A stretch of DNA of 40,016 nt from Parvibaculum sp. (GTDB taxonomy: Bacteria; Pseudomonadota; Alphaproteobacteria; Parvibaculales; Parvibaculaceae), in the NCBI RefSeq assembly GCF_002684405.1, contig NZ_NYVD01000002.1:1-40016 (forward strand). The letters run 5' to 3'. A program made the position numbers and the translations under genes. Below the pieces are notes generated by a model. It had not been told where the DNA came from. It saw only the letters and a list, made by a program, of their open reading frames with translations, and made no database searches. Shown piece by piece: positions 393 through 15,181 of this stretch (its first letter is position 1; each line of letters begins with the position of its first letter).

Positions 393-995
393 ATGTTCTA
401 CGATGCGGAAAAGAACGAACACGGGCTGAAGCACGACCCGTTCAAGGCGCTGGTGGTGCCGCGGCCGATCGGCTGGATTTCGACGCTGGACAAGGAGGGT
501 GTCGCCAATCTCGCGCCCTACAGCTTCTTCAATGGCGTGGCGACCGATCCGCATATCGTGATGTTCGCAAGCGGCCTCCGCAAGGACAGCCAGCGAAATG
601 CGGAGGAGACGGGCGAATTCGTCTGCAATTTTTCCGGCTGGGCGCAGCGCGAGGCGATGAACGCCTCATCCGCCTCGGTGGCGTCGGAGGTCGATGAGTT
701 CGAGCTGGCCGGGCTCGAGAAGCTGCCTTCGCAACTGGTGAAGCCACCCCGCGTGAAAGGCGCTCCCGCGCATTTCGAATGCGTCTATCTCGATACGATC
801 CGCCTGAAGGACCGGCATGGGGAAAAGCACCCGCTCTTCGAAGTAGTACTGGGACAGGTGATCGGCATTCATGTCGACGACCGTTTCATCGCTGACGGCA
901 TGGTCGATTCAGCCGCCATGAAACCGCTGTCGCGCCTCGGCTATATGGACTATGCGGTGGTGGAGGAGGTCTTCCGGATGGATCGGCCGAAATAG
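393..995 (+). CDS. Flavin reductase family protein (FMN-binding split barrel)
   Basis: This 200-residue protein matches the flavin reductase-like domain proteins that bind FMN and either reduce free flavin with NAD(P)H or act as small flavoprotein oxidoreductases in the cytoplasm. The signature is the N-terminal stretch around residues 18-55, with PRPIGWIST, NLAPYSFFN and DPHIVMFA, which forms the flavin-binding part of the split barrel. The length is normal for single-domain members. GAGGCGAG lies directly before the ATG. The HAD phosphatase gene follows with essentially no gap, so the two are probably co-transcribed. The physiological partner cannot be told from the sequence. The window also encodes an LLM flavin-dependent oxidoreductase far downstream, but a link is speculation. 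Confidence 0.85.
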   Translation: MFYDAEKNEHGLKHDPFKALVVPRPIGWISTLDKEGVANLAPYSFFNGVATDPHIVMFASGLRKDSQRNAEETGEFVCNFSGWAQREAMNASSASVASEVDEFELAGLEKLPSQLVKPPRVKGAPAHFECVYLDTIRLKDRHGEKHPLFEVVLGQVIGIHVDDRFIADGMVDSAAMKPLSRLGYMDYAVVEEVFRMDRPK

Positions 996-1004
996 GTGGG
1001 GGCG

Positions 1005-1724
1005 ATGGGGAAGACGGTGGAGATCAAGGGGCTGCTGTTCGACAAGGACGGCACGTTGTTCGATTTTCATCGAAGCTGGACGTCGGTCTTCGGCGACGCC
1101 GCGAACCGGCTTGCCCATGGCGATGAGGCTCTTGCTCAGCATTTGATGGTGGCGGGCGGATATGACATTCCCTCAGGCCGGATTGCCGCGGGCAGTATTT
1201 TCGCCGCAGGCGATACGCGGGATCTCGCTGAGGCCTGGCGTTCTCATTTGACCGCCTGGGAGAACGACGATCTCGTTTCCTGGCTCGATGTGCTCTTTGC
1301 AGAGATGGGACCGGATGCGTCGGTGCCCGTGACCGACCTGGCCACTTTCTTCGCGGAGCTGAAGGCGAGAGGACTCATCCTCGGCGTTGCGACGAATGAC
1401 AGCTATGCGTCTGCCATGGCGGCGGTGGAGCGTTTCGACTTCGGGCCGCATCTTTCTTTTTGTTGCGGATATGACAGCGGACACGGATCGAAGCCCGGGC
1501 CGGGGATGGTGCAGGCCTTTTGCCGGGAAACCGGGCTGGAGGCGCCATCCGTCGCCGTTATCGGCGACAACACGCATGACCTTGAAATGGCGCGCGCGGC
1601 GGGCGCCGGGCTTGCCATCGGCGTGCTGACGGGCACAAGCGGGCGCGACGACCTCATGCCGTTTGCCGACATGGTGATCGACAGCATCGCGCTCTTGCCG
1701 GAAATACTCGACCGTGGCGCCTAG
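1005..1724 (+). CDS. HAD-superfamily phosphatase (Gph-like)
   Basis: This 239-residue haloacid-dehalogenase-type hydrolase probably removes phosphate from a small metabolite. All four HAD motifs are visible: FDKDGT at residues 12-17 (Asp13 nucleophile, Asp15 acid/base), the Thr of VATND (motif II), the Lys of GHGSKPGP (motif III) and GDNTHD (motif IV, metal binding). The helical cap between motifs I and II resembles phosphoglycolate-phosphatase-like members, but the substrate is unknown. I chose the ATG at 1005, which has the G-rich ribosome binding site GGTGGGGG before it. A GTG at 996 directly abuts the upstream stop and would add three residues. The stop overlaps the convergent stop of the next gene in a shared CTAG. 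Confidence 0.85.
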   Translation: MGKTVEIKGLLFDKDGTLFDFHRSWTSVFGDAANRLAHGDEALAQHLMVAGGYDIPSGRIAAGSIFAAGDTRDLAEAWRSHLTAWENDDLVSWLDVLFAEMGPDASVPVTDLATFFAELKARGLILGVATNDSYASAMAAVERFDFGPHLSFCCGYDSGHGSKPGPGMVQAFCRETGLEAPSVAVIGDNTHDLEMARAAGAGLAIGVLTGTSGRDDLMPFADMVIDSIALLPEILDRGA

Positions 1725-3145
1725 CGCCGCCAGCTCATCGGCTTGATGTCGAATGCGAGGCTGATGCGCTGCGTGTCACCCTTGAAGGGCAGCGTGCGGT
1801 GGAAGAGGTAGGACGGGAAGAAGAAGGCATTACCCGCCTGCGGCTCGAAGGTCACCGTTTCCAAGTCGAAAGCCGGCGTGAAGTCCGGCGGCGGCGCGCC
1901 GAACTCGATCCAGCCTTCCCTCGTTTCCTTGTTGGCGTCGTCGTTTACGACTGGCGGCAGCGCAACGTAATAGACACCGCTCATCCAGCCGCCGACATGA
2001 ATATGAGAGTGCTGGTGGCCGCTTTCAGACAGAAGCGTGCCCCACATGTCGATCTGGTAGCTTTCAGGCACCTGACCGAAAAAGGGGTGTCCCGTCTCGC
2101 GGCGGATCGACGCGAAATGCGCATCGACGGCCTTGCGCAGCATCTTTTCGAAAGCGACGAAAGGTTCGCGAGGATGGTCCAGTAGCAGACCGGTCTGGCC
2201 GCCGCCGCGTGTGGCTTTGCCGGCGGGCTCCCAAACGGTGGTCGGGTCTTCGCGCAGGGCTTCTGCAAGTGCTGCGTTGAAATCCTCCATCGAGGCGTAG
2301 CCTTGCGGCACGTCCAGTGCGGCGCGAGAGACCACACGGCCGATCTCGGCACGATAGCCTGCGGGAAGCTGGCCCAGCTCCTGCGCGCGGACAAAGGGCA
2401 GCCATGCGGCGGCACGTCGTTCCGGCCCGTAGCTTCCAAGCGCTTCCTCGAAGATGTCTGCGGCTTCCTTCCAGCGGCCGAGTTTCATCAGTGCCATGCC
2501 CCGGCTCACAAGCGGTAGCACATCTTTCGGGCTCAGCTCATGGCAACGCTTGTAGGCTTCTTCCGCCGCCTCGTAGTTCTCGCGCTTCTGCTCGGCATTA
2601 CCGAGATTGCCATAGGCGGCGGCATTCTTCGGATCCTGTTCGACGGCGGCCTGAAAATGCGGGATCGCTTCATCGACCCGTCCCTGCCGCAGTACCACCA
2701 TGCCCAGCATGTTGTAGAGCTGTGCGGAAGGATCGAGTTGCAGCGCTGCGCTGAAGGCCGCTTCCGCTTCGGCGAATTTTCCGGCTCGCTGCAGGAGCTG
2801 GCCGAAGGTCACGATGACCCGGGCTTCGCCTGGAAAGCTGCGCACCGCATTGGCGTAATGCGTCAGCGCATCGCCCCAGCGGTTCGTCTGTTGCAGGAAG
2901 CGTCCGTAATTGAGCCAGGGCGTTACCTCATGAGGCCTCAGCTCGATGCATTTGCGCAATTCCTTCTCGGCGATGTCGAATTTGCCCATGGGCAGCAACG
3001 CACTGGCGCGCAGGGCGTGAAGGTCCGGATCGTCAGGGTTCGAGGCGATACGCGCCCGTGCCTTTTCATCGGCCTCCGCGAATTTGCGGGCCTGAAGCAG
3101 TTCCTGGATTTCCTGGGTCGGGGACGGGCCAAAGGGATTCGACAA
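1721..3145 (-). CDS. TPR protein with C-terminal 2OG-Fe(II) oxygenase domain
   Basis: The protein has 474 residues. Residues about 10-240 form a run of tetratricopeptide repeats (for example AAYGNLGNAEQKRENYEAAE), a protein-binding solenoid. Residues about 300-474 look like the putative 2-oxoglutarate/Fe(II) oxygenase family 5 domain. That part has a His-rich stretch at 377-383 (HQHSHIH) followed by SGVYYVALP, a distal His449 in SYLFHRTLPF, and Arg460 in QRISLAFDI, which fit two iron ligands and the 2-oxoglutarate-binding Arg. It probably hydroxylates a protein or small molecule; the target is unknown. The start is a TTG at 3145, and no ATG is available nearby. It lies 13 bases after the CitE-like gene, so it is probably the last gene of that operon. 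Confidence 0.8.
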   Translation of the reverse strand: MSNPFGPSPTQEIQELLQARKFAEADEKARARIASNPDDPDLHALRASALLPMGKFDIAEKELRKCIELRPHEVTPWLNYGRFLQQTNRWGDALTHYANAVRSFPGEARVIVTFGQLLQRAGKFAEAEAAFSAALQLDPSAQLYNMLGMVVLRQGRVDEAIPHFQAAVEQDPKNAAAYGNLGNAEQKRENYEAAEEAYKRCHELSPKDVLPLVSRGMALMKLGRWKEAADIFEEALGSYGPERRAAAWLPFVRAQELGQLPAGYRAEIGRVVSRAALDVPQGYASMEDFNAALAEALREDPTTVWEPAGKATRGGGQTGLLLDHPREPFVAFEKMLRKAVDAHFASIRRETGHPFFGQVPESYQIDMWGTLLSESGHQHSHIHVGGWMSGVYYVALPPVVNDDANKETREGWIEFGAPPPDFTPAFDLETVTFEPQAGNAFFFPSYLFHRTLPFKGDTQRISLAFDIKPMSWRR

Positions 3146-3158
3146 GGGGTGTTCCGTT

Positions 3159-4031
3159 CTAGGTGGATGATTGCGAAGCGCGCTCGACGAGGCGGCGCGC
3201 CTGTTTCAGATGGGGCATGTCGAGCATCACGCCGTCAAGCGAGACGACGCCGACATCGCCTGCGTCCTCGAATGCCTTGATGACGGCATGGGCATGGGCG
3301 AGGTCTTCCCCGCTCGGCGTGAAGACGCGGTTGATGATGGGCACCTGCGCCGGGTGGATCGCCATCTTGCCGGTAAAACCGTCCCGCGCGGCGGCGCGGG
3401 CATCGGTTTCAAGGCCAGCTTCGTCGCGGAAGTCGGCATAGATGCTGTCCACGGGATCGACGCCTGCGGCGACCGCGCCGAGCAGCGTCAGTGTGCGGGC
3501 CAGGCGATAGGGGCCGGTATAGAGGCCGTCATCGTCCTTGTTGGAGCGGGCGCCGAGATCGGCGGCGAGGTCTTCCGCCCCCCAGGTCATCATGGAGAGG
3601 CGGGGCGATGCGCCCTGATAGGTACCGAGGGTGAAAAGCGAGGCGGCGGTTTCCGTCGCCACACAGCAGAGCTTGGTCGATCCGGCGGCGATACCGGCTT
3701 CCTGCTCATGCTCGGTAAGGGCGAAGGCGACCGTCTTGATACAGTCGCCGGACTTCGTCTTCGGGACCATGATGCCGTCGGGTTTGGCTTTCACCACGGC
3801 GGCAAGGTCGTCTTCCCAGAAGGGCGTATCGAGCGCGTTCATGCGCACGAAGAGTTTCGGGCCGGTGCGGTCGGCGCCGGCGAGATAATCGGCGGTGATG
3901 CCGCGCGCGGTTTCCTTGTTGGAGAGCGCAACGGAATCCTCCATGTCGAGGATCAGCACATCCGCGCCGCTCAGATGCGCTTTTGCGAGTTTCTTCTCGC
4001 TGTCGCCGGGGACGAAAAGCCAGGACCGCAT
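3159..4031 (-). CDS. CitE-like CoA-ester lyase (HpcH/HpaI aldolase family)
   Basis: This 290-residue protein belongs to the family of citrate lyase beta chain-like and malyl-CoA lyase-like enzymes, which cleave or form C-C bonds of 3-hydroxyacyl-CoA thioesters using a divalent metal. Visible motifs are LFVPGDSEKKLAKA at the N-terminus, DVLILDMEDSV (metal/substrate acid), MVPKTKS, CVATETAASLF with the metal-binding Glu, MTWGAEDLAADLGA and AIHPAQV near the C-terminus. There is no partner citrate lyase alpha or gamma gene, so it is a stand-alone CoA-ester lyase rather than citrate lyase. The MaoC gene lies three bases upstream and an acyl-CoA dehydrogenase is divergent beyond it. This trio resembles the mycobacterial citE-MaoC-fadE19 locus linked to branched-chain acyl-CoA breakdown. 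Confidence 0.85.
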   Translation of the reverse strand: MRSWLFVPGDSEKKLAKAHLSGADVLILDMEDSVALSNKETARGITADYLAGADRTGPKLFVRMNALDTPFWEDDLAAVVKAKPDGIMVPKTKSGDCIKTVAFALTEHEQEAGIAAGSTKLCCVATETAASLFTLGTYQGASPRLSMMTWGAEDLAADLGARSNKDDDGLYTGPYRLARTLTLLGAVAAGVDPVDSIYADFRDEAGLETDARAAARDGFTGKMAIHPAQVPIINRVFTPSGEDLAHAHAVIKAFEDAGDVGVVSLDGVMLDMPHLKQARRLVERASQSST

Positions 4032-4034
4032 CGC

Positions 4035-4496
4035 TTACTCGCTTTCCGTCTTCGCATGCATGAAGGCCTGCCGCGTACAGGAGGCCACTTCCTCGCCATG
4101 TTGATTATAGGCCTTGTGCTCGAAGGTCACGATGCCCGCTTTCGGCCGCGATTTGGAGCGGCGCTTGCCCATGACTTTCGTTTCGATGCGCAGCGTATCG
4201 CCGTGAAAGACCGGCTTGGGGAAGACCACGTCGGTCATCCCCAGATTGGCGATGGTCGTCATATGGGTCGTCTCATGCACCGAAATGCCGATCATCATGC
4301 CCAGCGTCAGCAGGCTGTTCACCAGCGGCTTGCCGAACTCCGTCTCGCGGGCGGCATAATCATGGTCGATATGGAGCGCGGCCGGGTTCATGGTCATGGT
4401 CGAGAAGAAGGTATTGTCCGCCTCCGTCACCGTGCGGGTGATGGCGTGCTTGAAGAGCTGGCCTTCCTCGAATTCCTCGAAATAGAGTCCCGGCAT
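4035..4496 (-). CDS. MaoC-family hotdog dehydratase
   Basis: This is a 153-residue single-hotdog protein of the MaoC family, whose members add or remove water at 2-enoyl-CoA or 3-hydroxyacyl-CoA thioesters. The hydratase region reads [19 protein letters not shown], followed by [15 protein letters not shown] where many (R)-hydratases have a His-Gly. The conserved [15 protein letters not shown] and [18 protein letters not shown] stretches match the MaoC subgroup encoded next to CitE-like lyases. The ATG at 4496 has GAGGACGAA directly upstream. Its stop is three bases before the lyase start, so they are surely co-transcribed. It is divergent from the acyl-CoA dehydrogenase, suggesting shared use in one degradation pathway (dehydrogenation, hydration, cleavage). 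The substrate is unknown. Confidence 0.87.
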
Positions 4497-4596
4497 TTCG
4501 TCCTCGGTTGTGTTGTCTTATGTGGCTACCTTATAGCCTCCAAGAGGGACACGAAAAAAGGGATGGCCCGGAAGAAGGCCGAAAGGGAGGAAGCCC

Positions 4597-5766
4597 ATGG
4601 ATTTCACCTTCTCACCCGAACAGGAGGCGATTCGCGATGCTGTAGGGCGGATTTGCGCGCGTTACGACGATGCCTATTGGCTGGCGCATGATCGAGATGG
4701 CGGTTTTCCGGAGGATTTCGTGACCGAAATCGCAGCCGGCGGCTGGCTCGGCATTGCCATGCCGGAGCATCTGGGTGGCGCGGGGCAGGGCGTGACCGAG
4801 GCTGCCATCATCGCCCAGACCATTGCCGAATCCGGCGCCTGCCTGTCGGGAGCGTCGGCCATCCACATCAATCTTTTCGGGCCCATGCCGCTCGTCGTCT
4901 TCGGGACCGACGAGCAGAAGGAGCGCAATCTGCCGCCGCTCATCCGGGGCGAGGACCGCTGCTGCTTCGGCGTGACAGAGCCCGATGCCGGGCTCAACAC
5001 GACTTCCATCAGCACCAAGGCCGAGCGCGACGGCGATCACTATGTGGTGCATGGGCGGAAGATGTGGACCTCGACGGCGCAGACCGCGAACAAGATTTTG
5101 CTGCTGGCGCGCACCACGCCCAAGGAGCAATGCGCCAAACCGACTGCCGGACTGTCGCTCTTCTATACCGATCTCGACCGGGGCGGGGCGACGGAGGTGC
5201 GCGAGATCGAGAAGATGGGCCGCAAGGCGGTCGATTCCAACGCCGTCTTCTTTGATGGGCTTCGCGTGCCGGCGAGCGATCTGATCGGCGAGGAGGGGAA
5301 GGGGTTTCAATATCTGCTTCACGGGCTCAATCCGGAGCGCGTGCTGATCGGCGCGGAAGCTGTGGGCGTGGGGCGCGCCGCGCTTCGCAAGGCCACGGAC
5401 TATGCGCGCGACCGGGTAGTTTTCGGTCGGCCCATCGGCCAGAACCAGGCGATCCAGCATCCGTTGGCCGCCTGCTGGGCGGAGCTGGAGGCGGCCAATC
5501 TGATGGTCTTCAAGGCGGCCTCGCTCTACGATTCCGGTGCCTCCTGCGGCGCGGAGGCCAATGCGGGGAAATATCTGGCGGCGGAAGCAGGCTTCAAGGC
5601 CTGCGAAACGGCCATCATGACCCATGGCGGCATGGGCTATGCCAAGGAATTTCATGTCGAGCGCTATATGCGCGAGGTGATGATCGCCCGCATCGCGCCG
5701 GTGAGCCGGGAGTTGATCCTCAGCCATATCGCGGAGAGAGTGCTGGACCTCCCCAAGAGCTATTGA
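4597..5766 (+). CDS. Acyl-CoA dehydrogenase
   Basis: This 389-residue cytoplasmic FAD enzyme oxidises an acyl-CoA to the 2,3-enoyl-CoA and passes electrons to ETF. Recognisable features are CFGVTEPDAGLNTTSIST (signature 1), the VHGRKMWTSTA strand, DRVVFGRPIGQNQAIQH in the C-terminal helical domain, and THGGMGYAKEFHVERYMR (signature 2). The length and domain order are normal. AAAGGGAGGAAG precedes the ATG. It is divergent from the MaoC/CitE-like operon, with 100 bases between, and is followed by a HIT gene after eight bases. The neighbours suggest a short or branched acyl-CoA substrate, as for mycobacterial FadE19, but that is inference from gene order. Confidence 0.92.
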   Translation: MDFTFSPEQEAIRDAVGRICARYDDAYWLAHDRDGGFPEDFVTEIAAGGWLGIAMPEHLGGAGQGVTEAAIIAQTIAESGACLSGASAIHINLFGPMPLVVFGTDEQKERNLPPLIRGEDRCCFGVTEPDAGLNTTSISTKAERDGDHYVVHGRKMWTSTAQTANKILLLARTTPKEQCAKPTAGLSLFYTDLDRGGATEVREIEKMGRKAVDSNAVFFDGLRVPASDLIGEEGKGFQYLLHGLNPERVLIGAEAVGVGRAALRKATDYARDRVVFGRPIGQNQAIQHPLAACWAELEAANLMVFKAASLYDSGASCGAEANAGKYLAAEAGFKACETAIMTHGGMGYAKEFHVERYMREVMIARIAPVSRELILSHIAERVLDLPKSY

Positions 5767-5774
5767 GGCCAATC

Positions 5775-6182
5775 ATGCCCTTTACCCTCCATGAACGCCT
5801 CGCCGCCGACACGTTGCCGGTGGTCGATCTCGACCTTTGTCGTGTGTTGCTGATGAAGGACCGGCGTTATCCATGGCTCATTCTCGTGCCGAGGCGGGAG
5901 GGGCTCCGGGATTTCGATGAGGTGCGGCCTGAGGACAAGCACGCCTTCTATGAGGAAATCGAAAGGGTGAGCGAAATTCTCCGGGAGGAAACGGCGGCGG
6001 AGAAAATGAACGTGGCCGCGCTGGGCAATATGGTGCCGCAGCTTCACGTCCATATCATTGCCCGTTTCGCGCACGATGCGGCCTGGCCGGGGCCGGTCTG
6101 GGGTGTGGGGGAGGCGGAACCCTATGGACCGGGTGAGGCCGAGGCGCTGCTCGGGCGGTTGAGGGAGAGGCTGGGCAATTAG
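5775..6182 (+). CDS. HIT family protein
   Basis: This 135-residue histidine-triad protein is a nucleotide hydrolase or transferase that would act on AMP- or ADP-linked compounds through a His-AMP intermediate. The triad reads HVHII at residues about 94-98, preceded by the usual NMVPQL, and is one residue shorter than the classic HxHxHxx pattern because the last His is replaced (HVHIIAR). The N-terminal part contains the typical LLMKDRRYPWLILVPRR strand pair. The ATG at 5775 follows GAGG at suitable spacing. A TTG at 5763 overlapping the upstream TGA is possible but less likely. It probably shares the acyl-CoA dehydrogenase transcript. The substrate is not evident. Confidence 0.85.
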   Translation: MPFTLHERLAADTLPVVDLDLCRVLLMKDRRYPWLILVPRREGLRDFDEVRPEDKHAFYEEIERVSEILREETAAEKMNVAALGNMVPQLHVHIIARFAHDAAWPGPVWGVGEAEPYGPGEAEALLGRLRERLGN

Positions 6183-6318
6183 CCGCCGGATGGCCCGGTG
6201 GAGAGGCTATTTCCGCATCCGCCCTCTCATGGTTAACCTTTGATTTATTTCTTCGGGCGAGGGTTGTTCGAAAGCGGGACAGGTGAGTCGTCCTGCATGA
6301 GCCGGATAGACCTACGCC

Positions 6319-6663
6319 ATGCTTACAGCCCAGATCACAGGCCCGACCGGAGCCACCAAGCTGGGGATCGCCTCGATCCTCACGCGGCTTCGTATCGAGC
6401 TCGTACCCGCCTCCATGCAGGCCCGGCTTTATCTCGTCGCCGATGAGCCGGACGAGCAGGCGGCGGTGATCCGTCAGCTGCGCTCGTCGCCTGCGAGCCG
6501 CCATGCGCTGGTGCTTGCCGTTGCCGACAATGCCTCGCCCGCCCATGTGCGCGAGGCGCTGGCTGCGGGGGCGGACGATTATCTCGTCTGGCCCTTCGAT
6601 CCGGAGCTTCTGCTCTTCAAGCTGGAGCAGGCCAGCGCCCGGGGACGCCTCAAAGCCGGCTGA
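6319..6663 (+). CDS. Stand-alone pseudo-receiver domain protein
   Basis: This is a 114-residue protein resembling a response-regulator receiver domain with no output domain. The C-terminal half is characteristic: ALVLAVADNAS (strand 4), VREALAAGADDYLVWPF (helix 4 and strand 5) and a final helix. Key phosphorelay residues look lost. The Lys expected in the DYLxKPF motif is Trp91, the Thr/Ser after strand 4 is Ala, and the N-terminal acidic pair is not visible. It is therefore probably not phosphorylated in the usual way and may bind a partner constitutively. The start at 6319 has only a weak ribosome binding site. It is convergent with the MFS gene and has no kinase gene nearby. Confidence 0.6.
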   Translation: MLTAQITGPTGATKLGIASILTRLRIELVPASMQARLYLVADEPDEQAAVIRQLRSSPASRHALVLAVADNASPAHVREALAAGADDYLVWPFDPELLLFKLEQASARGRLKAG

Positions 6664-6706
6664 GAAAACGAGTCCGCTTCGCGCTCCAACTCATTGAAAC
6701 CATACT

Positions 6707-8125
6707 CTATTTCTCATGTTCCTTACTCCATGCCTCAAGATAGTCGAGGCTCTTGAGATAAGGCTTCAGCGCGAGGAAGCCGGCCGTCGTGGCCAGCGTC
6801 AGGATGACGGCGGGCGCCCAGACCAGCGAATAGCGCAGCATCATCTCGTCGCCGAAGACGAAGTCCGTCACCACTGCGATGGAAGTGGGACCGAGGCCGA
6901 GGCCGATCAGGTTCACGACGAAGATCAGGGCCGCCGAAGCGAACCCGCGCAGCTGGTTCGGCATCAGCTCCTGCAGGGCGGAGGGCCCGGCGCCGGTGGA
7001 GAAGGTGGCAAAGAAGGTCGAGGGGCAGAGCAGGACGAGCGCCCAATGGGGGTCGTTCATCAGCGGATAGCCGAGCGTGAAGGGCATGGCGGCAAGGCCG
7101 GTGGCCGCACAGACCAGCATCCGGCCGTTGCGTATGCCTTTTGCCGTCAGCTTGTCGGCGAGCCAGCCCCCCGCCACGACGCCCGAGGTGCCGAAGATGA
7201 CGATGATCCAGCCATACCACCGACCGGCGTCGACATAGCTCCAGTCATAGGTGCGGACGAAGAAGCTGGGGATCCAGGCGGCGACGCCATAGGCCATCAT
7301 GGCGCATAGCGCGTAGCACAGGCTGAGGGGCAGAAGGGTCTTCCAGTTGTCCTTGAAATATCCCAGAACCTCGCCAAGCGGCACATCGACCTGCTTTTCC
7401 ACGCCGTCCGCGCCGATCTCCTTGCGCATATGGCCGCGTCGCACCGGCTCTTTCAGGCTGAGCGTCCAGAGCGCAATCAGGATGCCCGGCAGGCCTACCA
7501 CGAGGAAGACGACCTGCCAGGCGAAGACGTCACCGACGAGGGGAAGGGTGAGATTGCCGCCATTGGAGACGAGGCCGATCACCTCCGCGCCGATGACGAG
7601 CGCCAGGCCTGCGCCGATATAGACGCCCATGCCGTAGACGCCGAGCGCGAAGCCCAGCCGCTTGGGCGGGAAATAGTCGGCGATCATGGAATAGGCCGAC
7701 GGCGTCAGCGCCGCTTCGCCCACGCCAACGCCCATGCGAAATATGAAGAGTTGCCAGTAAGCCTTTGCCAGACCACAAAAAGCGGTCATCAGGCTCCACA
7801 CGAAAACACCGGCGGAAATGATGCGGACGCGGTGGCTGCGGTCGACCATGCGGCCGATGGGCAGCCCCATCAGCGTGTAGAAAATAGCGAAGGCCAGGCC
7901 CTGCAGCAGGCTCATCTGGGTGTCGGAGATGGCCAGATCGCGCTTCATCGGGCCGACCAGCAGGCTCAATATCTGCCGGTCGATGAAGGAGAAGGTATAG
8001 GCGAGCACCAGCACGCCGACCACGTACCATGCGTAAAGCCGGTTGGGATAAGGCAGCCCGATCCGGTCCTTATGGGGATGATGAAGCTCTTCTTCGACCT
8101 CGGCGGCGATTTCTGTCTCAGCCAT
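6707..8125 (-). CDS. MFS transporter (spinster-like)
   Basis: This 472-residue inner-membrane protein of the major facilitator superfamily has about twelve hydrophobic segments. The N-terminus is soluble and acidic, followed by the first membrane span at about residues 32-52 (AWYVVGVLVLAYTFSFIDRQ), the SFIDRQ feature of spinster-type and related carriers. The loop between spans 2 and 3 carries GLPIGRMVDRSHRVR, the MFS loop motif. A cytoplasmic loop after span 6 (LSLKEPVRRGHMRK) separates the halves. The ATG follows GGGAGGAATTGGGGA. Neighbours give no clue to the cargo. Members of this group in alphaproteobacteria are often annotated as transporters of hydrophobic organic acids or lipids, but no substrate can be claimed. 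Confidence 0.88.
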   Translation of the reverse strand: MAETEIAAEVEEELHHPHKDRIGLPYPNRLYAWYVVGVLVLAYTFSFIDRQILSLLVGPMKRDLAISDTQMSLLQGLAFAIFYTLMGLPIGRMVDRSHRVRIISAGVFVWSLMTAFCGLAKAYWQLFIFRMGVGVGEAALTPSAYSMIADYFPPKRLGFALGVYGMGVYIGAGLALVIGAEVIGLVSNGGNLTLPLVGDVFAWQVVFLVVGLPGILIALWTLSLKEPVRRGHMRKEIGADGVEKQVDVPLGEVLGYFKDNWKTLLPLSLCYALCAMMAYGVAAWIPSFFVRTYDWSYVDAGRWYGWIIVIFGTSGVVAGGWLADKLTAKGIRNGRMLVCAATGLAAMPFTLGYPLMNDPHWALVLLCPSTFFATFSTGAGPSALQELMPNQLRGFASAALIFVVNLIGLGLGPTSIAVVTDFVFGDEMMLRYSLVWAPAVILTLATTAGFLALKPYLKSLDYLEAWSKEHEK

Positions 8126-8286
8126 TCCCCAATTCCTCCCTCTTGCAGAATGTCTGCACGATTCCTCCGTGCTTGGCGGGCAGCTTATCCGATCTCCGTA
8201 TAACCGTTCTCAAAAACCATCATTTTCCGCAAGATGGAATGGCATGGGGCTTGCTCCTGTCTTTTCAGAATTGGAAAGGAAGTCCC

Positions 8287-9243
8287 ATGTCGCTCGTAGC
8301 CGCGCTCACCGCGCGTCCCGACATATCCGCCGCCCTGCAGCAGGCAAGCCGGAAGACCGGCGCAGATTTCGACTATCTGCTGCAGACGGCCATGCGCGAG
8401 TCGAGCCTCGATTGTTCCGCGAAATCAGGGACTTCGAGCGCGACGGGGCTTTTTCAGTTTACCGAGCAGAGCTGGCTTTCGACGCTCAAGAATTACGGTG
8501 GAGAGCTTGGGCTGGGCAATGAGGCGGCCAAGATCACCCAGGGCGCGGACGGCAAATACTGCGTGGCAAATGCTGCCGATCGGTCGGAAATTCTTTCCCT
8601 GCGCAAGGACCCGGAAGTGTCCGCGCTGATGGCCGGAGCCTATACGCAGGAAAGCGCGAACATTCTGCAGTCGCGTCTGGGGCGCGAGCCGTCGGGCGGC
8701 GAACTCTATATCGCGCATTTCCTCGGGGCGGGCGGGGCGTCGAAGCTGATCTCGACCGCCGAGGACGATCCGACGATGCCCGCGGACATGCTCTTCCCGG
8801 CGGCGGCGAAGGCGAACAAGTCGATTTTCTACGAGGCTTCCGGTCGTGCGCGCACGGCGAACGAAGTCTATCAGAAGCTCATCAGCAAACATGCGGATGC
8901 CGGCACGGGTGGCGGTGCGGCAAGCATGGCGGCGGCCATTCCTTTCGACGTAAAGGGTGGTACGGGAATGGCCGCCAGCCATGCGGATAGAGAGGCTTCG
9001 CCGGGGAGGCGGTACGTACCGTCTTCCGGGCAAGCCCGTCTCTTCAGGCCCGACAACATGCCGGGGAGCGGGGCGCTGAAGCTCAGCCCCGCCGTGGTGC
9101 AGATCCTCGCCTCGCTGGATCCGTTGCCGGAAGGCGACAAGGCGGCGAAGGACAAGGACGAACCGAGGGAGCAGCACGGCGCCATTGGTACCTGGCAGGA
9201 CCTTGCCCGGCCATCTTATGAGGCGTTCAAAGCCACCGCCTGA
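8287..9243 (+). CDS. Transglycosylase SLT-domain protein without signal peptide
   Basis: This 318-residue protein has a lysozyme-like transglycosylase domain in residues about 10-180, followed by a low-complexity Ala/Gly-rich tail. The catalytic region reads AMRESSLDCSAKSGTS with Glu38 as the likely acid, then TGLFQFTEQSWLSTL, the SLT goose-lysozyme pattern, and IAHFLGAGGASKLI later. The enzyme class cleaves the MurNAc-GlcNAc bond of peptidoglycan. The N-terminus (MSLVAALTARPDIS) has no Sec or lipoprotein signal, which is unusual for a wall enzyme. I chose the ATG at 8287 because GGAAAGGAAG lies upstream and an in-frame extension to 8029 would run through the divergent MFS gene. Flagellum-associated transglycosylases also lack signals, but no flagellar gene is nearby. 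Confidence 0.8.
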   Translation: MSLVAALTARPDISAALQQASRKTGADFDYLLQTAMRESSLDCSAKSGTSSATGLFQFTEQSWLSTLKNYGGELGLGNEAAKITQGADGKYCVANAADRSEILSLRKDPEVSALMAGAYTQESANILQSRLGREPSGGELYIAHFLGAGGASKLISTAEDDPTMPADMLFPAAAKANKSIFYEASGRARTANEVYQKLISKHADAGTGGGAASMAAAIPFDVKGGTGMAASHADREASPGRRYVPSSGQARLFRPDNMPGSGALKLSPAVVQILASLDPLPEGDKAAKDKDEPREQHGAIGTWQDLARPSYEAFKATA

Positions 9244-9280
9244 GCGGCCTAGCCTATCGCGCCGGCCTTTGTCGGTCGGG

Positions 9281-9862
9281 TCAGCTTTGCTCGACGATAG
9301 CGCGGACCGCTTTCACGATGTCCTTGTCGAGTTCGCGCCGCGATACGGCGATCCGGCCTTCGACGCCCCTGAAAAGCGACAAGCCCTCGAACAGGCTCAT
9401 CAGGATGACGGCGCAGCGCTTAAGCTGTGCCGGTTTCGCCTGGGGATATTCCGAGGCGACGATACTCTCCACATAGGATTGGTAACGCGCGTAATAGCGG
9501 GCAAGGACAGCGTTGGCCTTGTCGTCGCGCGCGGCGAGTGCCCAGAGTTCGAAGAACATCCGGCAGTTGCTTGCGGAAAGCTGATCTTCGAGCACGAAGG
9601 CGACCATGGCCTCGATCCCTTCGCGTTTCGGGCGGGTTTCGAAAACCTCGATCGAGCGTGTGAGCGAGCGGTCGAAAATCGCCTCCAACAGAGCGTCGGG
9701 CCCGTCGAAATAGTACTGAACATGCGAGAGGCGCAAGCCGAGCCGGTCGGCAACACCGCGCATGGACAGGCCTCCATACCCCGCCTCGACCAGTATTTCC
9801 TCGGCTGCATCGAGAATTTCTTCGATGCGTCGCTGGCCCTTGGCGCCGGTCCTTCTCGCCAT
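9281..9862 (-). CDS. TetR-family repressor of the adjacent GMC cassette
   Basis: This is a 193-residue TetR/AcrR-type regulator. Residues about 10-57 form the DNA-binding part: RIEEILDAAEEILVEAGYGG, then the helix-turn-helix LSMRGVADRLGLRLSHVQYYF. The rest is a helical ligand-binding domain typical in length. GCGAGGGAAG precedes the ATG. It is divergent from the five-gene run starting at 9974, and two copies of the palindrome TGGTC-N4-GACCA lie in the 111 bases between them. I infer that it represses that operon and possibly itself until a small ligand, perhaps the oxidoreductase substrate, binds. The regulator-operator pairing is an inference from layout, not shown directly. Confidence 0.88.
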   Translation of the reverse strand: MARRTGAKGQRRIEEILDAAEEILVEAGYGGLSMRGVADRLGLRLSHVQYYFDGPDALLEAIFDRSLTRSIEVFETRPKREGIEAMVAFVLEDQLSASNCRMFFELWALAARDDKANAVLARYYARYQSYVESIVASEYPQAKPAQLKRCAVILMSLFEGLSLFRGVEGRIAVSRRELDKDIVKAVRAIVEQS

Positions 9863-9916
9863 CTTCCCTCGCTGTCTCCGGTCATTCGCGGATATGCCGC
9901 CCTTTTATCCCAAAAA

Positions 9917-9930
9917 TGGTCTCTTGACCA
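9917..9930. promoter_or_regulatory. Operator copy 1, TGGTC-N4-GACCA
   Basis: A perfect 5-bp inverted repeat (TGGTC, spacer TCTT, GACCA) sits in the divergent space between the TetR gene and the Tat-signal gene. An identical repeat with a different spacer lies 27 bases downstream. The size, symmetry and position fit a TetR-type operator. Confidence 0.75.
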
Positions 9931-9943
9931 AAAAATATAAAAA

Positions 9944-9957
9944 TGGTCACATGACCA
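9944..9957. promoter_or_regulatory. Operator copy 2, TGGTC-N4-GACCA
   Basis: This is the second copy of the inverted repeat, with spacer ACAT. The two copies are separated by an A/T-only stretch containing TATAAA at 9936-9941, unusual in this GC-rich sequence and likely to overlap the divergent promoters. This copy ends about 16 bases before the start codon at 9974, so binding here would block transcription or early elongation of the operon. Confidence 0.75.
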
Positions 9958-9973
9958 AAAATGAGGATGGCAA

Positions 9974-10555
9974 ATGCAGCGACATACAGGTCTTTCAAGG
10001 CGGGGTTTTCTGAAAGCCGGGGGCGCGACCGCGGCAGGCGTGGCGGTGCTGGGGCTTGCCGGCGTAGCGGTGCCTGGCGGTGAGCACTATGGCGAGATCG
10101 TGGGCGATGAGCGGCCGGGCGTTTTGACGGAAAAGGAGTTCGCCGTTCTCATCCTTGCAGTGGACGGCCTGATCGGCCAAGCGGGGGATCTGCCTTCAAC
10201 ACGCGAGACCCGGACCGCCGCGCGGATCGATAGAGAGCTCTCTCTGGTCGGCGGACAACTTCTCGAGGATATGAAGGCGTCGCTCCTTTATCTCGAATAC
10301 CGGCCGCTTCTGGGCGGTGGCCTCACGCGGTTCACGAAGATGGCGCCGGGCGAGCGGCTTGGTCTTCTGACGGAGTTGCAGCATTCCGGGGATGTTCTCG
10401 AGCGGAGCATCTATGCGGGCATCCGTTTTATGGCTGTCTTCTTCTTCTACACCGACCCTCGGGCATGGGCGCATATGGGCTATGGCGGTCCTCTTGTCTC
10501 GCCGAAGTTTTTCCCGGGCGGCAACCGGATCGAAAATCTTGGAGCGCCGGCATGA
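9974..10555 (+). CDS. Tat-exported small subunit (gluconate 2-dehydrogenase subunit 3-like)
   Basis: The protein has 193 residues. The N-terminus carries a twin-arginine signal, SRRGFLKAGG, followed by a hydrophobic Ala/Gly-rich stretch (about residues 15-33), so it should be exported folded. The mature part, with LTEKEFAVLILAVD near its start, resembles the small third subunit of membrane-bound GMC dehydrogenases such as gluconate 2-dehydrogenase, which helps carry the flavin subunit across the membrane. GAGGATGG precedes the ATG. Its TGA overlaps the ATG of the GMC gene (ATGA), which suggests translational coupling and a tight complex. It is the first gene of the cassette controlled by the divergent TetR regulator. 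Confidence 0.75.
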   Translation: MQRHTGLSRRGFLKAGGATAAGVAVLGLAGVAVPGGEHYGEIVGDERPGVLTEKEFAVLILAVDGLIGQAGDLPSTRETRTAARIDRELSLVGGQLLEDMKASLLYLEYRPLLGGGLTRFTKMAPGERLGLLTELQHSGDVLERSIYAGIRFMAVFFFYTDPRAWAHMGYGGPLVSPKFFPGGNRIENLGAPA

Positions 10556-12099
10556 TCGTAGAGGGACGGGACGCAAAGGGGGCACTCCGCGAGACGGTGG
10601 ATGTCGTCATCATCGGATCGGGCTGTGGCGGCGCCACCGCGGCGAAACATCTCGCGGAGGCGGGGCTTTCGGTCGTCATACTGGAGCAGGGCGGCTATTT
10701 CACGGCGGGTCGCGGCGATCTCGATCAGCTTTCCGACAATATGCTGGCCCGCATTGACGGCGGGCGTGGCCTCGGGACGAGCGTGAACGGCGAAATTGCC
10801 TTGATGTATGGAAACTGCGTCGGCGGCGCGAGCGTGCATTACTGGGCCGATAGCTGGCGGCTGCCGGAAGACCGCAATGCGCTCTACCAGTCGCGCGGCG
10901 TCAGTGGGCATGAAGTCGAGGTGCTGGCACCGATCTTCGAGGAGATCGAGCGCGACCACAATGTGCACAATGCCGCTCCGCACTATCGCAACCGGATGAA
11001 CGAGTTCTTCATCGAGGGGGCAACGAAGCTTGGCTGGCATGTGGAAGATGTGCCGCAGGCGCGGCGGGGCTGCGTTGCAAGCGGACACTGCTATCAGGGC
11101 TGTTCTTACGACGCAAAACAGAGCCAGCTCGTCACCTATGTCCCCGCGGCGCTGAAAGCCGGGGCGCGGCTTTATGCCGATTGCCGTGTCATCGCGATTG
11201 AGCGCGATATGAAGACGGGTCGGGCGAGCGGCGTGCGGGCCGTTTTTGTCGACAGTGCGAGTGGACAGCCGACGGATGCGACACTGGAGGTGAAGGCACG
11301 GGCGGTGGTGCTTGCGGCAGGCGGTTACGGATCGCCCGCCGTCTGGCTCCAGACGGGGCTTCCCAATGGTTCAGGGCAGGCGGGAAAAAACCTCTTCACC
11401 AATCCCAATCCCTATCTCTATGCGCTTTACGACGAGCCGGTCTATATGTGGCAGAATATTCCCGCCGCTGTCGGCACGTCCGATTTCCGCCTTGCCCGCT
11501 ATGAGGATGGCGTTTATCGCGAAGGCGGTTATCTGCTGCATCCCAATCAACTCCAGCCGGAATTCCTGGCGGCAACATTGCCCGGGTTCGGCAATTCACA
11601 TGCGTCGCTTATGGCCGAACTGCCGCAGATAGGCGGCGCGGTGAGCTGGATCGACGATGAGCATGGCGGCGAAGTGCGTCTGAACGCCGACGGCTTGCCG
11701 GAATATCACTACAAGCTTCGCGGCGACGACATTCTGAAGCTGCGCGATGCGATGAAGAAGCAGGCAATGCTGCTTTTTGCCTCCGGCGCGCGGGAGGTTC
11801 TGGTGCCCGATATTCGCGGGACCAGGCTCAGGGGCACGGACGAGATCGGGCTGCTCGACGAAATCGATGTGGAGAACGGTGCGATCCTGTTCGGGGCGCC
11901 GCATCCCGCTGGTGCGTTGCGTATGGGAGACGATCCTGCGACCTCGGTTGTTGCGAGTACGCATGAGGCACATGAAGTGCCGGGGCTGTATGTGGCCGAT
12001 CCGAGCGTCTTTCCGCTACCGCCCAGCGTGGACCCGTCGCTGACCATCATGGCGTTCTCCGTTGTCGCCGCGCGCCATATCCAGAACGCGTTGCTCTAG
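10552..12099 (+). CDS. GMC-family FAD oxidoreductase, catalytic subunit
   Basis: This 515-residue flavoprotein would oxidise an alcohol or sterol-type substrate. The FAD-binding Rossmann motif is VVIIGSGCGGATAAKHL (about residues 19-35), followed by VVILEQGG and GNCVGGASVHYWAD. A Cys-rich segment, GCVASGHCYQGCSYDAKQS, matches GMC enzymes of the dehydrogenase branch. The C-terminal signature has APHPAGALRMGDDP with the usual His, then YVADPSVFPLPPSVDPSLTI. It has no signal peptide of its own, so it is probably exported with its Tat-signal partner encoded just upstream. The usual cytochrome c subunit of such complexes is not encoded here. Instead two small membrane proteins follow nine bases downstream. 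The natural substrate is unknown. Confidence 0.88.
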   Translation: MIVEGRDAKGALRETVDVVIIGSGCGGATAAKHLAEAGLSVVILEQGGYFTAGRGDLDQLSDNMLARIDGGRGLGTSVNGEIALMYGNCVGGASVHYWADSWRLPEDRNALYQSRGVSGHEVEVLAPIFEEIERDHNVHNAAPHYRNRMNEFFIEGATKLGWHVEDVPQARRGCVASGHCYQGCSYDAKQSQLVTYVPAALKAGARLYADCRVIAIERDMKTGRASGVRAVFVDSASGQPTDATLEVKARAVVLAAGGYGSPAVWLQTGLPNGSGQAGKNLFTNPNPYLYALYDEPVYMWQNIPAAVGTSDFRLARYEDGVYREGGYLLHPNQLQPEFLAATLPGFGNSHASLMAELPQIGGAVSWIDDEHGGEVRLNADGLPEYHYKLRGDDILKLRDAMKKQAMLLFASGAREVLVPDIRGTRLRGTDEIGLLDEIDVENGAILFGAPHPAGALRMGDDPATSVVASTHEAHEVPGLYVADPSVFPLPPSVDPSLTIMAFSVVAARHIQNALL

Positions 12100-12108
12100 G
12101 GGGTTTCC

Positions 12109-12495
12109 ATGATCCTTGTTCCTTTTCTTCTCTGGCGTTTCTTCTTTCTTGTTCTTGCCGTGAATTACGGCATGACGGTGCAGACCATTCTGGCAGGCGA
12201 GTTCGATCACACGGGCCTGCCCGCAGCGATGACGACCATGGAAGCCGTGGCCAATGGCGTCGAGGCTTTCGGCTGGTTGCTGGTGTTCGTGCTTTCGTGG
12301 ACCGGCAGACGGCAGGGCGCGGCGCGGATTGCGGTGTTCCTGGCGGGACTTCTCTTCTTCGACGTCGTCACGACATTCATCCTGCCGATGCCTTTGCCGC
12401 CCTATTTCCTTGCCTGGGGGACGGTGCTTGTCGGCGTCGAGCTGCTGGGCGCACGAGCGCTTTACCGGGAGGTGCAGCATGAATCGGTCGCATAA
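12109..12495 (+). CDS. Four-span membrane protein, paralog A of a tandem pair
   Basis: This 128-residue protein is largely hydrophobic with about four membrane spans (around residues 4-24, 43-62, 69-90 and 98-118). I do not recognise a family. It aligns along most of its length with the next protein: shared TGLP near residue 36, an ANG...GW pattern in span 2, LSWT after it, FLAG in span 3, then D-x-x-TT, LP-x-MP and PP. This shows the two genes arose by duplication. It starts nine bases after the GMC gene, inside the same operon. By analogy with three-subunit GMC dehydrogenases it may anchor the complex or pass electrons to quinone, but no heme ligand pattern is evident. Confidence 0.7.
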   Translation: MILVPFLLWRFFFLVLAVNYGMTVQTILAGEFDHTGLPAAMTTMEAVANGVEAFGWLLVFVLSWTGRRQGAARIAVFLAGLLFFDVVTTFILPMPLPPYFLAWGTVLVGVELLGARALYREVQHESVA

Positions 12496-12868
12496 CTCCG
12501 AATGGGGACTGCCTCTGTTCTTTGCACTGATCGGTTTCATCTTCTGGGCAAATGTACCGGGTCTCCATGCCGGTCTCTTCGCGCGAACCGGATTGCCTGA
12601 CGCTGTCATCCCTCTGCACATGATTGCCAATGGGGCCCAGGGGACGGGTTGGTTTCTCGTGGCTTGGCTGAGCTGGACCTGCCGCTGGCGTATGGCGGCG
12701 TGGCTTGCCTATTTCCTCGCCGGTATGTGGTGCTGGGACATGATGACTACGGCCTATCTGCCGCATATGCCCGTTCCACCCCTTCAATGGTGCTGGGGGC
12801 CGGCAAGCGTCGTGCTGATGGTGGCCGCGGCGAACCGTCTTTGGCGCCGCCCTTCCATTGCATTCTGA
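12479..12868 (+). CDS. Four-span membrane protein, paralog B of a tandem pair
   Basis: This 129-residue membrane protein is homologous to the preceding one. The common core is TGLP (residues about 38-41), IANG with GW six residues on, LSWTC, YFLAGMWCWD, MTTAYLP and MPVPP. Trp is enriched in the spans compared with paralog A. The ATG at 12479 lies within the end of the upstream gene (17-base overlap) and is preceded by CGGGAGGTGCAGC, an excellent ribosome binding site. The longer frame from 12254 overlaps paralog A too far to be real. The pair may form a heterodimer in the membrane. The conserved Asp after span 3 is a candidate functional residue. Confidence 0.7.
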   Translation: MNRSHNSEWGLPLFFALIGFIFWANVPGLHAGLFARTGLPDAVIPLHMIANGAQGTGWFLVAWLSWTCRWRMAAWLAYFLAGMWCWDMMTTAYLPHMPVPPLQWCWGPASVVLMVAAANRLWRRPSIAF

Positions 12869-12893
12869 TCCACCTCTACAACCAGGTATTCCA

Positions 12894-13985
12894 GTGACCA
12901 ATGAAACTGTGCTCATTGCCGGCGGTTATGGCGTTGTCGGCTCGCAAATCGCCAGGCTTCTGAGAAAGCGTTATCCGGAAATCGAGATATTGCTGGGCGG
13001 GCGATCGCCGGGGCAGGGCAAAGAGCTTGCCGAAGAGCTGGGCCGCGCGGCGGCCGTGCGGCTGGATCTTTCCCGCCCCAATCCGTTGGCCGGGCTCGAA
13101 AGGCAGCCCACCATCGTGCTCGGGGCGGTCAACGACATCGATGACAATCTGATGCTCGACGCGATCAGCGCGCATATTCCCTATATCGACATCACGCGCT
13201 GGACCGAACGTATGCGGGGATCGATTTTGCGGGCGGCGATGGAAGATACTTCCGGGGCGCCGGTCGTTTTCGCCTCCTCCTGGATGGCCGCGACGATCGG
13301 CATATTGGTGCGTGAGATGGCAGCCGGTTTCCGGCAGGTCGACCGGATCGAAGTCGGCATCCTCTATGCGGCGAAGGATAAGTCCGGTCCTAATTCGGTT
13401 GAATATATGGACAGGATGGCGCTTCCCTTCGAGGTTCGTGAAGAAGGGCGGGCGGTGATGGCATATCCCTTTCGCAAGGGGATAAAGACAGACTTTCCGG
13501 GAGTGGGGCGCTTTCCGCTCTATCGCTTCGATACGCCGGACCAGATGACGCTCCCCTCCATCACAGGGGCGAGAAGCGTGTCGGCGCGTATCGGTTTCGA
13601 CGACCGAACTTCGGGCCCGTTTCTGAGTTTTCTTGTGCGCTCCGGCTTGTGGGGGCTCATCAGTGGCGAGCGGTTCCGCAAGTTGCGGCATGGGCTGATG
13701 TACAATCCCGGAGAAGGCGGGGCGCATCGGGTTCGTATCGATATCGAAGGTGAGGGCGCGCACGGACCGGCGCGGGAGAGCTGGATCGTCACGGATTCGC
13801 AGGGCCAGACCCATTTGACCGCGACAGGAGCCATGATCCAGCTCGACCGGCTGCTCCGTCAGGGGACACACCAAGCCGGGATTCAGGTCGCGGAAACGGT
13901 TACCGACGCTGAGACGGCGAGGCGGATCATGAATGAGGAGGGTATCTCCGTCGACCGCCTCGCGCAGATGGAGGACGCGGCCTAA
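12894..13985 (+). CDS. Saccharopine-dehydrogenase-like NAD(P)-binding protein
   Basis: This 363-residue protein begins with a Rossmann nucleotide-binding fold, TVLIAGGYGVVGSQIARLL (residues about 5-23), followed by EILLGGRSP, where the Arg may contact NADP. The architecture matches saccharopine-dehydrogenase-like proteins, a broad group including lipid-linked trans-acting enoyl reductases. It is unlikely to make lysine, because no lysine pathway gene is near. The GTG at 12894 gives the natural start just before the nucleotide-binding strand; a TTG at 12858 would overlap paralog B. It is the last gene of the GMC cassette and may act on the oxidised product in the cytoplasm. Its stop overlaps that of the convergent CoA-transferase gene by four bases. 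Confidence 0.75.
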   Translation: MTNETVLIAGGYGVVGSQIARLLRKRYPEIEILLGGRSPGQGKELAEELGRAAAVRLDLSRPNPLAGLERQPTIVLGAVNDIDDNLMLDAISAHIPYIDITRWTERMRGSILRAAMEDTSGAPVVFASSWMAATIGILVREMAAGFRQVDRIEVGILYAAKDKSGPNSVEYMDRMALPFEVREEGRAVMAYPFRKGIKTDFPGVGRFPLYRFDTPDQMTLPSITGARSVSARIGFDDRTSGPFLSFLVRSGLWGLISGERFRKLRHGLMYNPGEGGAHRVRIDIEGEGAHGPARESWIVTDSQGQTHLTATGAMIQLDRLLRQGTHQAGIQVAETVTDAETARRIMNEEGISVDRLAQMEDAA

Positions 13986-15181
13986 CCGATCGCCCCGGCT
14001 TTTCTCAAGCTCTCGATTTCCTCATCGCTGAAGCCCGAGGCCTTCAAGGTGTCGATGGTGTGCTCGCCGAGCGCGGGCGCGGGGCCTTTAGGGCCGTCAT
14101 CGGCGCCAGGAAAGCGGATGGGCGAGGCGGGCGACAGATAGGTGCCCTCTCCGCCGCCTTCTTCGGGCACTTCCACATAGGCGCCGGCGGCCTTGGCCTG
14201 CGGATCGGCAAAGACATCGGCGGGGCGCAGAAGCGGGGCCCAGATCATGTCCTCGGCGTCCAGCTTCTCGCGCCAATAGTCCAGATCGTGCTGGATGAAG
14301 GCCGCGTCCAGGATATCCACAAGGTCGGCTGCATTGGCGCGGCGGTTCTTCGGATTGTCGAAGCGGGAATCGGTTTCGAGTTCGGGCCGGCCGATCACCT
14401 TGCAGATCGCGGTCCAGTCGGTCGAGCCCTGACGCGGGACGATCACGATCCAGGTGTCCCTGGTCTTGAAGAAATTGCTGATGGGCTGGACGGCCTCATG
14501 GCGCGTCTTGGTGGAGCCGAGCTTGCCGTAGCGCAATTGAACGGCGGTGTCGGATCCGGCGGCATAGATGCCGGCGCGTAGAAGCGAGGCTTCCACCAGG
14601 CGGCCCTTGCCGGTGGTCTGGCGTTCGAAGACGGCGGCGAGGATGCCGCCGACCGTGGCCATGCTGGTGGTGTGGTCGCCGATGCCGGTCCGCAGCGATA
14701 CGGGTTCGCCGCCCTTGACGGTCTGCAGCCAGCCGACGCCGGACCGGGCATAAAAGGCGGCGATGTCGAAGCCGGGGCGGTCCCGGTCAGGGCCTTCCAG
14801 CCCGTAGCCGGTGACGCTGGCATAGACGAGGCGCGGATTGATCTCCTTCAGGGAGTCATAGTCCAGCCCTGCGCGCTCCAGCCCGCCGGGCCGCACATTG
14901 GTGATGAAGACGTCGGCATCCTCGACCAGCCGTTTCACTGCCGCCACACCCTCGGGCGTCGCGGTATTGATGGCGAGCCCCTTCTTGCCACGATTGTCGA
15001 GATCGAAGATGGGGCTGCCCTTCAGATGGTCCGCGCCGACATTCGCCATGGTATAGCGCATCGGGCAGCCGTTCAGCGGTTCGATCTTGATGACGTCCGC
15101 TCCCCAGTCGGCAAGGATCCCGCCCGCGCCCGGCGCAGCGATATAGGTTGCCATTTCGATGACTTTAAGACCTTCCAGCAT
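13982..15181 (-). CDS. CaiB/BaiF family (type III) CoA transferase
   Basis: This 399-residue protein moves CoA between a CoA thioester and a free acid through an aspartyl-CoA thioester intermediate. The N-terminal region has LEGLKVIEMATYIAAPGAGG and LADWGADVIKIEP, typical of the family. FDLDNRGKKGLAIN and DVFITNVRPGGLERAGLDYDSL follow, and GPDRDRPGFDIAAFYARSG contains the probable catalytic Asp. The interlocked-dimer proteins of this family are usually 380-430 residues, so the length is normal. GGGGAACCCTG precedes the ATG. It is convergent with the preceding cassette and has no co-directional neighbour within it. The acid it activates is unknown; acyl-CoA genes are common in the window. Confidence 0.9.
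   Translation of the reverse strand: MLEGLKVIEMATYIAAPGAGGILADWGADVIKIEPLNGCPMRYTMANVGADHLKGSPIFDLDNRGKKGLAINTATPEGVAAVKRLVEDADVFITNVRPGGLERAGLDYDSLKEINPRLVYASVTGYGLEGPDRDRPGFDIAAFYARSGVGWLQTVKGGEPVSLRTGIGDHTTSMATVGGILAAVFERQTTGKGRLVEASLLRAGIYAAGSDTAVQLRYGKLGSTKTRHEAVQPISNFFKTRDTWIVIVPRQGSTDWTAICKVIGRPELETDSRFDNPKNRRANAADLVDILDAAFIQHDLDYWREKLDAEDMIWAPLLRPADVFADPQAKAAGAYVEVPEEGGGEGTYLSPASPIRFPGADDGPKGPAPALGEHTIDTLKASGFSDEEIESLRKAGAIG

Follow-up and report, generated by a model that had tools for sequence, protein, structure and literature searches.

The 40,016-nucleotide stretch of Parvibaculum sp. DNA analysed here (the window) carries at positions 9281-13985 a six-gene cassette with two operator-like palindromes, centred on a putative periplasmic dehydrogenase of the GMC flavoprotein family and a pair of small membrane proteins, memA and memB. 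As described in a first-pass annotation of the sequence, a divergent TetR-type gene is followed by five tightly packed genes, all recovered at the noted positions by gene calling and Pfam searches. The small-subunit and GMC genes are joined by an ATGA overlap, and the memA and memB genes overlap by 17 nt. The features are as follows.

9281-9862, minus strand: divergent gene for a TetR/BetI-type repressor (TetR_N, E = 2e-8; TetR_C_6, BetI-type, E = 9e-10; both over the Pfam cutoff)
9917-9930: operator-like palindrome 1, TGGTC-TCTT-GACCA, from a pattern scan
9944-9957: operator-like palindrome 2, TGGTC-ACAT-GACCA, 27 bp from palindrome 1, from the same kind of scan
9974-10555, plus strand: small (hitch-hiker-type) subunit (TAT_signal, 22.9 bits, cutoff 22.7)
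10552-12099, plus strand: GMC flavoprotein, catalytic subunit (GMC_oxred_N, E = 2e-27; GMC_oxred_C, E = 1e-17)
12109-12495, plus strand: memA, a four-helix membrane protein with Glu45 and Asp85 (predicted model and alignments)
12479-12868, plus strand: memB, a memA paralogue with His at the Glu45 position (alignments and profile comparison; fused to memA in locus L019)
12894-13985, plus strand: saccharopine-dehydrogenase-like NAD(P) reductase (SDH), with a GTG start (NADP-binding domain, E = 0.0055, below cutoff)
10075-12841: segment absent from the sister genome G019, comprising most of the small-subunit gene, all of the GMC and memA genes and nearly all of memB

The two small membrane proteins are homologous to each other, as the annotation had stated, with 41% sequence identity (E = 2e-17) and a profile-profile probability of 99.7%. 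An AlphaFold2 model of memA (mean predicted local distance difference test score, pLDDT, 90.6) places helices at residues 4-28, 39-64, 68-90 and 100-127, and its best Foldseek match in the PDB has E = 1.0. Residues G30, W56, G80, D85, T88, T89, L92, M94 and L118 are invariant in 12 aligned mem sequences; Asp85 lies in a helix predicted to be in the membrane, and the alignment contains no invariant His or Cys. One position in the second helix is Glu in five of five memA proteins and His in five of five memB proteins as well as in the second half of the fused L019 protein, the first half of which has Arg. Neither protein matches a Pfam or NCBIfam family, and no literature on this gene combination was found; judged from these two databases and a limited literature search, the pair appears to be undescribed. 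A relationship to DoxX, MauE, SMR, FrdC or FrdD was rejected at the sensitivity used, the hhalign probabilities being at most 5.1% (DoxX 0.2%, from 7 sequences; MauE 0.5%; SMR 5.1%, from 2 sequences; FrdC and FrdD 0.1% each), with the memA-memB comparison as the control.

The pair is rare. It was found in 3 of 98 relatives, 2 of 385 class genomes and one of 5 genomes of one further order, counts that include the own genome or the query source, and in none of 72,556 plasmid records; when genome contigs were scanned using the membrane alignment, 28 pattern matches and four loci resulted. Removal of duplicates left six distinct pair loci, namely the window, L011 (Rhodobiaceae bacterium UBA4490, also G033), L012 (Tepidicaulis marinus, also G029), L013 (a Kordiimonadaceae metagenome-assembled genome), L014 (a Sphingopyxis metagenome-assembled genome) and L019 (G239). 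The order small subunit, GMC, memA, memB, with a TetR gene nearby, is kept in all five GMC cassettes, which span three families and in which the other GMC proteins are 63-77% identical to that of the window and memA is at 44-61% identity. SDH follows these genes in the window, L013 and L014, and is present in every one of the six pair-bearing genomes (linked in four, unlinked in two).

The sixth locus carries a different enzyme. In L019 one protein of 261 aa combines memA and memB; SDH comes after it, a TetR gene is divergent, and alongside is a gene set of the methylamine dehydrogenase (tryptophan tryptophylquinone, TTQ) type at 5165-11017 (Me-amine-dh_L, 6e-51; Me-amine-dh_H, 1e-49; MauE, 9e-15). 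In order, the set encodes Me-amine-dh_H, MauE, a protein of the AhpC/TSA type whose position makes it MauD-like, Me-amine-dh_L, and two proteins that each contain a single CxxCH motif. One of the latter has no Pfam match and the other a sub-threshold match to Cytochrom_C552 (E = 0.0047), so that it is the motif that suggests their identity as cytochromes. No close GMC homologue was found in G239 (best E = 4.6e-8, in an assembly that is 92% complete). Because L019 has a TTQ set and its genome no close GMC, the partner of the pair is a periplasmic-type dehydrogenase but not always a GMC enzyme: the pair accompanies such a dehydrogenase in six of six distinct loci, five GMC and one TTQ amine dehydrogenase. 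The fusion in L019 also points to a heterodimer of memA and memB. On this evidence the pair seems to be a membrane partner dedicated to periplasmic dehydrogenases, and not simply a stand-in for a cytochrome.

The latter role had been proposed in the first-pass annotation, in which the pair fills the slot of a missing cytochrome subunit. Its starting point stands, since a scan of the cassette frames found none with a CxxCH motif; elsewhere in the window there are three CxxCH frames of at least 90 codons, none of them cytochrome-like by eye, without a profile test. The comparison was extended to 11 distant GMC loci, drawn from nine of the 29 other genomes of the phylum that match GMC at 1e-40, one class relative and one Alteromonas plasmid. 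The small-subunit profile matches the frame directly upstream of GMC in ten of them. CxxCH frames of at least 100 codons lie within 5 kb of GMC in two, one frame being short and upstream and the other antisense inside the GMC gene, and neither was judged a cytochrome, again without a profile test. The membrane profile found no match in these loci or in two further plasmid GMC loci (13 scanned). With a credible cytochrome nearby in none of the 11, the lack of one was rejected as a distinguishing feature of the window; judged from gene content, it is common beside GMC genes of related enzymes. The slot-filling claim therefore falls, both because these distant loci have neither cytochrome nor pair and because the fused pair sits beside a TTQ set that itself includes two CxxCH genes. 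What the gene content supports is the rest of the description, a GMC dehydrogenase with a Tat small subunit, accompanied by TetR, by operator-like sites and by the membrane pair, and the pair is found with GMC in five of the six loci rather than mostly away from it.

The catalytic subunit is assigned to the GMC family by its Pfam matches. GMC enzymes use a His together with an Asn or His. Of this canonical pair the window protein retains His451, whereas the second residue is Asp494 (window 12031-12033), as in five of five cassette GMCs; the same column is Asn in 30 of 31 distinct distant GMCs, the exception aligning a Pro. Asp494 is thus, as far as the alignment indicates, a mark of the cassette GMC clade. 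The cysteine triad Cys174/180/184 (C-x5-C-x3-C) is kept in all 36 distinct GMC sequences (45 aligned rows, less 9 duplicates) and aligns with cysteines in the Fe-S region of solved fructose dehydrogenase and FAD-glucose dehydrogenase chains. We take these residues to be ligands of a [3Fe-4S] cluster, and the protein fits a catalytic subunit with three such cysteines. For glucose dehydrogenase, published work describes the 3Fe-4S cluster as the first acceptor of electrons from FAD, the small subunit as a hitch-hiker on the twin-arginine translocation (Tat) pathway, and three haems on a third subunit (PMC9727119; PMC5979317).

The small subunit of the window appears to be a Tat-signal subunit of the gluconate_2-dh3 family. 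Its own match to Gluconate_2-dh3 is sub-threshold (E = 0.015; 16.1 bits, cutoff 23.4); the L013 copy scores just below the cutoff (22.8), the L014 and L066 copies score over it (23.6 and 35.5), and the L012 copy gives no match at E 0.01. Homologues from three aligned cassettes are 45-60% identical, and the cassette profile reaches the L066 copy. Sequence and profile searches of the PDB returned signal-peptide-type and chance matches alone, a fold search with a poor model (pLDDT 66.7) gave no match, and a Gluconate_2-dh3 search of the own genome, in which the window copy itself falls below threshold, found none. SDH, in turn, probably belongs to the saccharopine dehydrogenase-like NADP reductases: the window protein scores 17.5 bits against Sacchrp_dh_NADP (cutoff 25.1) and the L013 homologue 32.4 bits, over the cutoff, while the distant homologue L118 of G033 has no match at E 0.01.

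Upstream of the small-subunit gene lie the two palindromes, which had been taken for identical twins. Their arms are indeed identical (TGGTC...GACCA), but their cores differ (TCTT versus ACAT). In the window the pattern GGTCNNNTGACC matches four times, at three sites of which the third is at 39574; 0.27 matches were expected, and none of 100 shuffles reached four. The A/T-flanked form of the palindrome has three sites in the 3.42-Mb genome, and two of these lie in the cassette; the reversed-pattern control gave one per strand. The third genomic site (C114:34798) was rejected as regulatory, as it falls within an open frame of 387 codons, a candidate gene. Conservation extends to part of the relatives, GGTC-N4-GACC sites being found in L011, L012 and L094, the corresponding stretch of the sister genome G019.

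The sister genome separates the cassette into two parts. At the same locus G019 has a TetR gene 94% and an SDH gene 91% identical to those of the window, with both palindromes, one of them with a different core. The blastn blocks corresponding to window 8223-10074 and 12842-14046 abut in G019, leaving about 33 codons of the small subunit and the tail of memB, and these remnants point to loss in G019. Neither TetR nor SDH contains stops, and their dN/dS values against the window are 0.30 and 0.28, as compared with 0.05 in two of the genes that flank them and 0.25 in another one. A search of G019 for close relatives of GMC and memA found weak GMC matches alone. As a separate observation, dS against G019 is 0.12 for TetR, 0.17 for SDH and 0.21 for the gene at 8284-9243, as compared with 0.36 and 0.37 for the flanking CoA-transferase and thiolase, that is, a third to just over half of the flanks, as if recombinationally exchanged.

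TetR and SDH also occur together elsewhere. G030 has both, without the other cassette genes and with two GGTC-N3-GACC sites, and in G029 and G033 both are unlinked to the cassette, with two paired 11-bp GGTC-N3-GACC sites in each genome. On Streptomycetaceae plasmids TetR lies beside SDH, and a single GGTC-N4-GACC site immediately precedes SDH, in eight of eight stretches fetched; these come from 13 such records listed among 39 matches and form four groups at 96% DNA identity or more. Since TetR and SDH are found alone in G030, in G029 and G033 and on these plasmids, and are kept in G019, TetR-operator-SDH looks like an older, separate unit to which the dehydrogenase block is accessory, an arrangement that the first-pass annotation did not cover.

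The surrounding slot, window 8284-15181, is itself variable. The flanking CoA-transferase is present in 25 non-own genomes, and among 13 same-genus regions fetched TetR-SDH occupies the slot in G019 alone; in four the CoA-transferase gene adjoins that at 8284-9243, in six the two are separated by other genes, and in two the second gene falls outside the stretch. Same-genus genomes thus hold nothing, TetR-SDH alone, or unrelated genes, named by eye from their translations as a glutathione-transferase-like protein, a P-type ATPase or an acyltransferase. A TonB receptor adjoins the cassette in L013, L014 and L019. The L013 receptor (3357-5528) is in two adjacent frames, plug and barrel, representing a split gene or an assembly error, and in L014 the cassette and receptor (226-11128) lie between genes for a type IV secretion system coupling protein and a T2SSE/TrbB-type ATPase, such that the cassette is apparently cargo of a conjugative element. 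By frame size, without a profile test, no TonB-receptor-sized frame lies beside the cassette in the window, L011 or L012 except one antisense to L012 genes.

These data lead to a tentative model of two units in one TetR regulon. The older unit would comprise TetR, the GGTC-N4-GACC operators and SDH as a cytosolic reductase; the accessory unit, lost as a block in the sister genome, would comprise the Tat-exported FAD/[3Fe-4S] GMC enzyme, its small subunit and a heterodimeric membrane partner of two times four transmembrane helices. A ligand of TetR would free the operators, and GMC would be carried out of the cytosol by its small subunit and oxidise an alcohol in the periplasm, with electrons moving from FAD first to the Fe-S cluster and then to an acceptor encoded outside the cassette. 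At the membrane the pair would assist the dehydrogenase, most likely by conveying its carbonyl product (or the substrate) across to SDH. Both partner dehydrogenase families make carbonyls. Such passage is cautiously preferred because the pair is a putative heterodimer with a membrane Asp, accompanies two carbonyl-making dehydrogenases and has SDH in all six genomes. Several observations weigh against it. The block deletion in G019 ties the pair to GMC and not to SDH; in G029 and G033 SDH is unlinked and its sites have a 3-bp spacer, so that common control with the cassette is unsupported there; and L013, L014 and L019 have no perfect operator, L014 having two sites with one mismatch. No transporter family matches the pair either, Pfam at E up to 10 giving four DUF-type families, each in one member, and the SMR comparison, the highest of those made, covers 31 columns and is not significant.

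Hand-over of product to SDH is nevertheless favoured over quinone reduction, the earlier proposal. Here the pair would act as a membrane anchor without haem, accepting electrons from the Fe-S cluster of GMC and handing them to quinone, much as FrdC/FrdD do in fumarate reductase. Several features fit this rather unlikely alternative: the pair is kept and lost together with the dehydrogenase, both partner enzymes are electron donors, and memB has a His where memA has a Glu, in addition to the invariant Asp85. Moreover, a weak positive-inside pattern of memA, in our own reading, would place the conserved loops TGLP and LPMPxPP on the periplasmic face. However, an electron anchor is hard to reconcile with the two CxxCH genes of the L019 TTQ locus (putative cytochromes by the motif and a sub-threshold Pfam match), with distant GMC loci that show neither cytochrome nor pair, and with the lack of an invariant His or Cys and of similarity to FrdC/FrdD. 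An assembly or docking factor, which would keep the exported dehydrogenase membrane-bound but transfer neither electrons nor product, is less probable again; it would suit the small size, the conserved loops and the association with two unrelated dehydrogenases, but polar Asp85, Thr88 and Thr89, invariant in a predicted membrane helix, exceed what a dock needs, and the 13 distant GMC loci scanned manage without the pair. That this is an ordinary GMC dehydrogenase operon with a lineage-specific pair of no role in it is improbable, for despite the rarity of the pair the gene order is kept in five of five GMC cassettes of three families, with memA proteins only 44-61% identical, and the fused pair stands beside another type of dehydrogenase.

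Overall, memA and memB may, with due reserve, represent a new family of haem-free heterodimeric modules through which GMC (FAD/Fe-S) dehydrogenases and amine dehydrogenases of the TTQ type connect to the inner membrane, to pass on either electrons or product. A family without a Pfam or NCBIfam match is associated with two periplasmic dehydrogenases whose chemistry is unrelated, and G019 provides a natural block deletion that separates the pair from the regulator and reductase. Together these give a direct route to asking how GMC dehydrogenases without an adjoining cytochrome gene dispose of their electrons and product.

Among known systems, FAD-glucose and fructose dehydrogenases resemble the cassette in having a GMC subunit with the aligned Cys triad and a separate Tat small subunit, and differ in that the window small subunit lacks a Cys for the inter-subunit disulfide that has been described (PMC9727119). 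They further differ in having a triheme cytochrome c, for which the cassette has no gene, and in the active-site Asn, replaced by Asp in the window. A CxxCH scan found no multihaem cytochrome c subunit of the FAD-glucose, fructose or gluconate dehydrogenase type in the cassette or the window, the rest of the genome not being searched. FrdC and FrdD of fumarate reductase are related by analogy only, as two small, paired, haem-free membrane proteins beside a flavin/Fe-S enzyme, although they show no sequence similarity to the pair, serve a cytoplasmic and not a periplasmic enzyme, and have three helices each, where memA has four. Gammaproteobacterial loci such as that on Alteromonas macleodii plasmid pKD02 share the small-subunit gene directly upstream of GMC, the Cys triad and the lack of a credible cytochrome nearby. 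Their GMC proteins are about 28-36% identical to that of the window, and they have no membrane pair and no SDH match; on pKD02 the small-subunit gene is annotated as followed by GMC and then by an aldehyde dehydrogenase, and the regulators differ. Finally, although no GMC, small-subunit or membrane-pair match occurs in the eight Streptomycetaceae plasmid stretches, their TetR-SDH pairs correspond to the other half of the cassette, with SDH 36-37.5% and TetR 36-38% identical to those of the window and the GGTC-N4-GACC site upstream.

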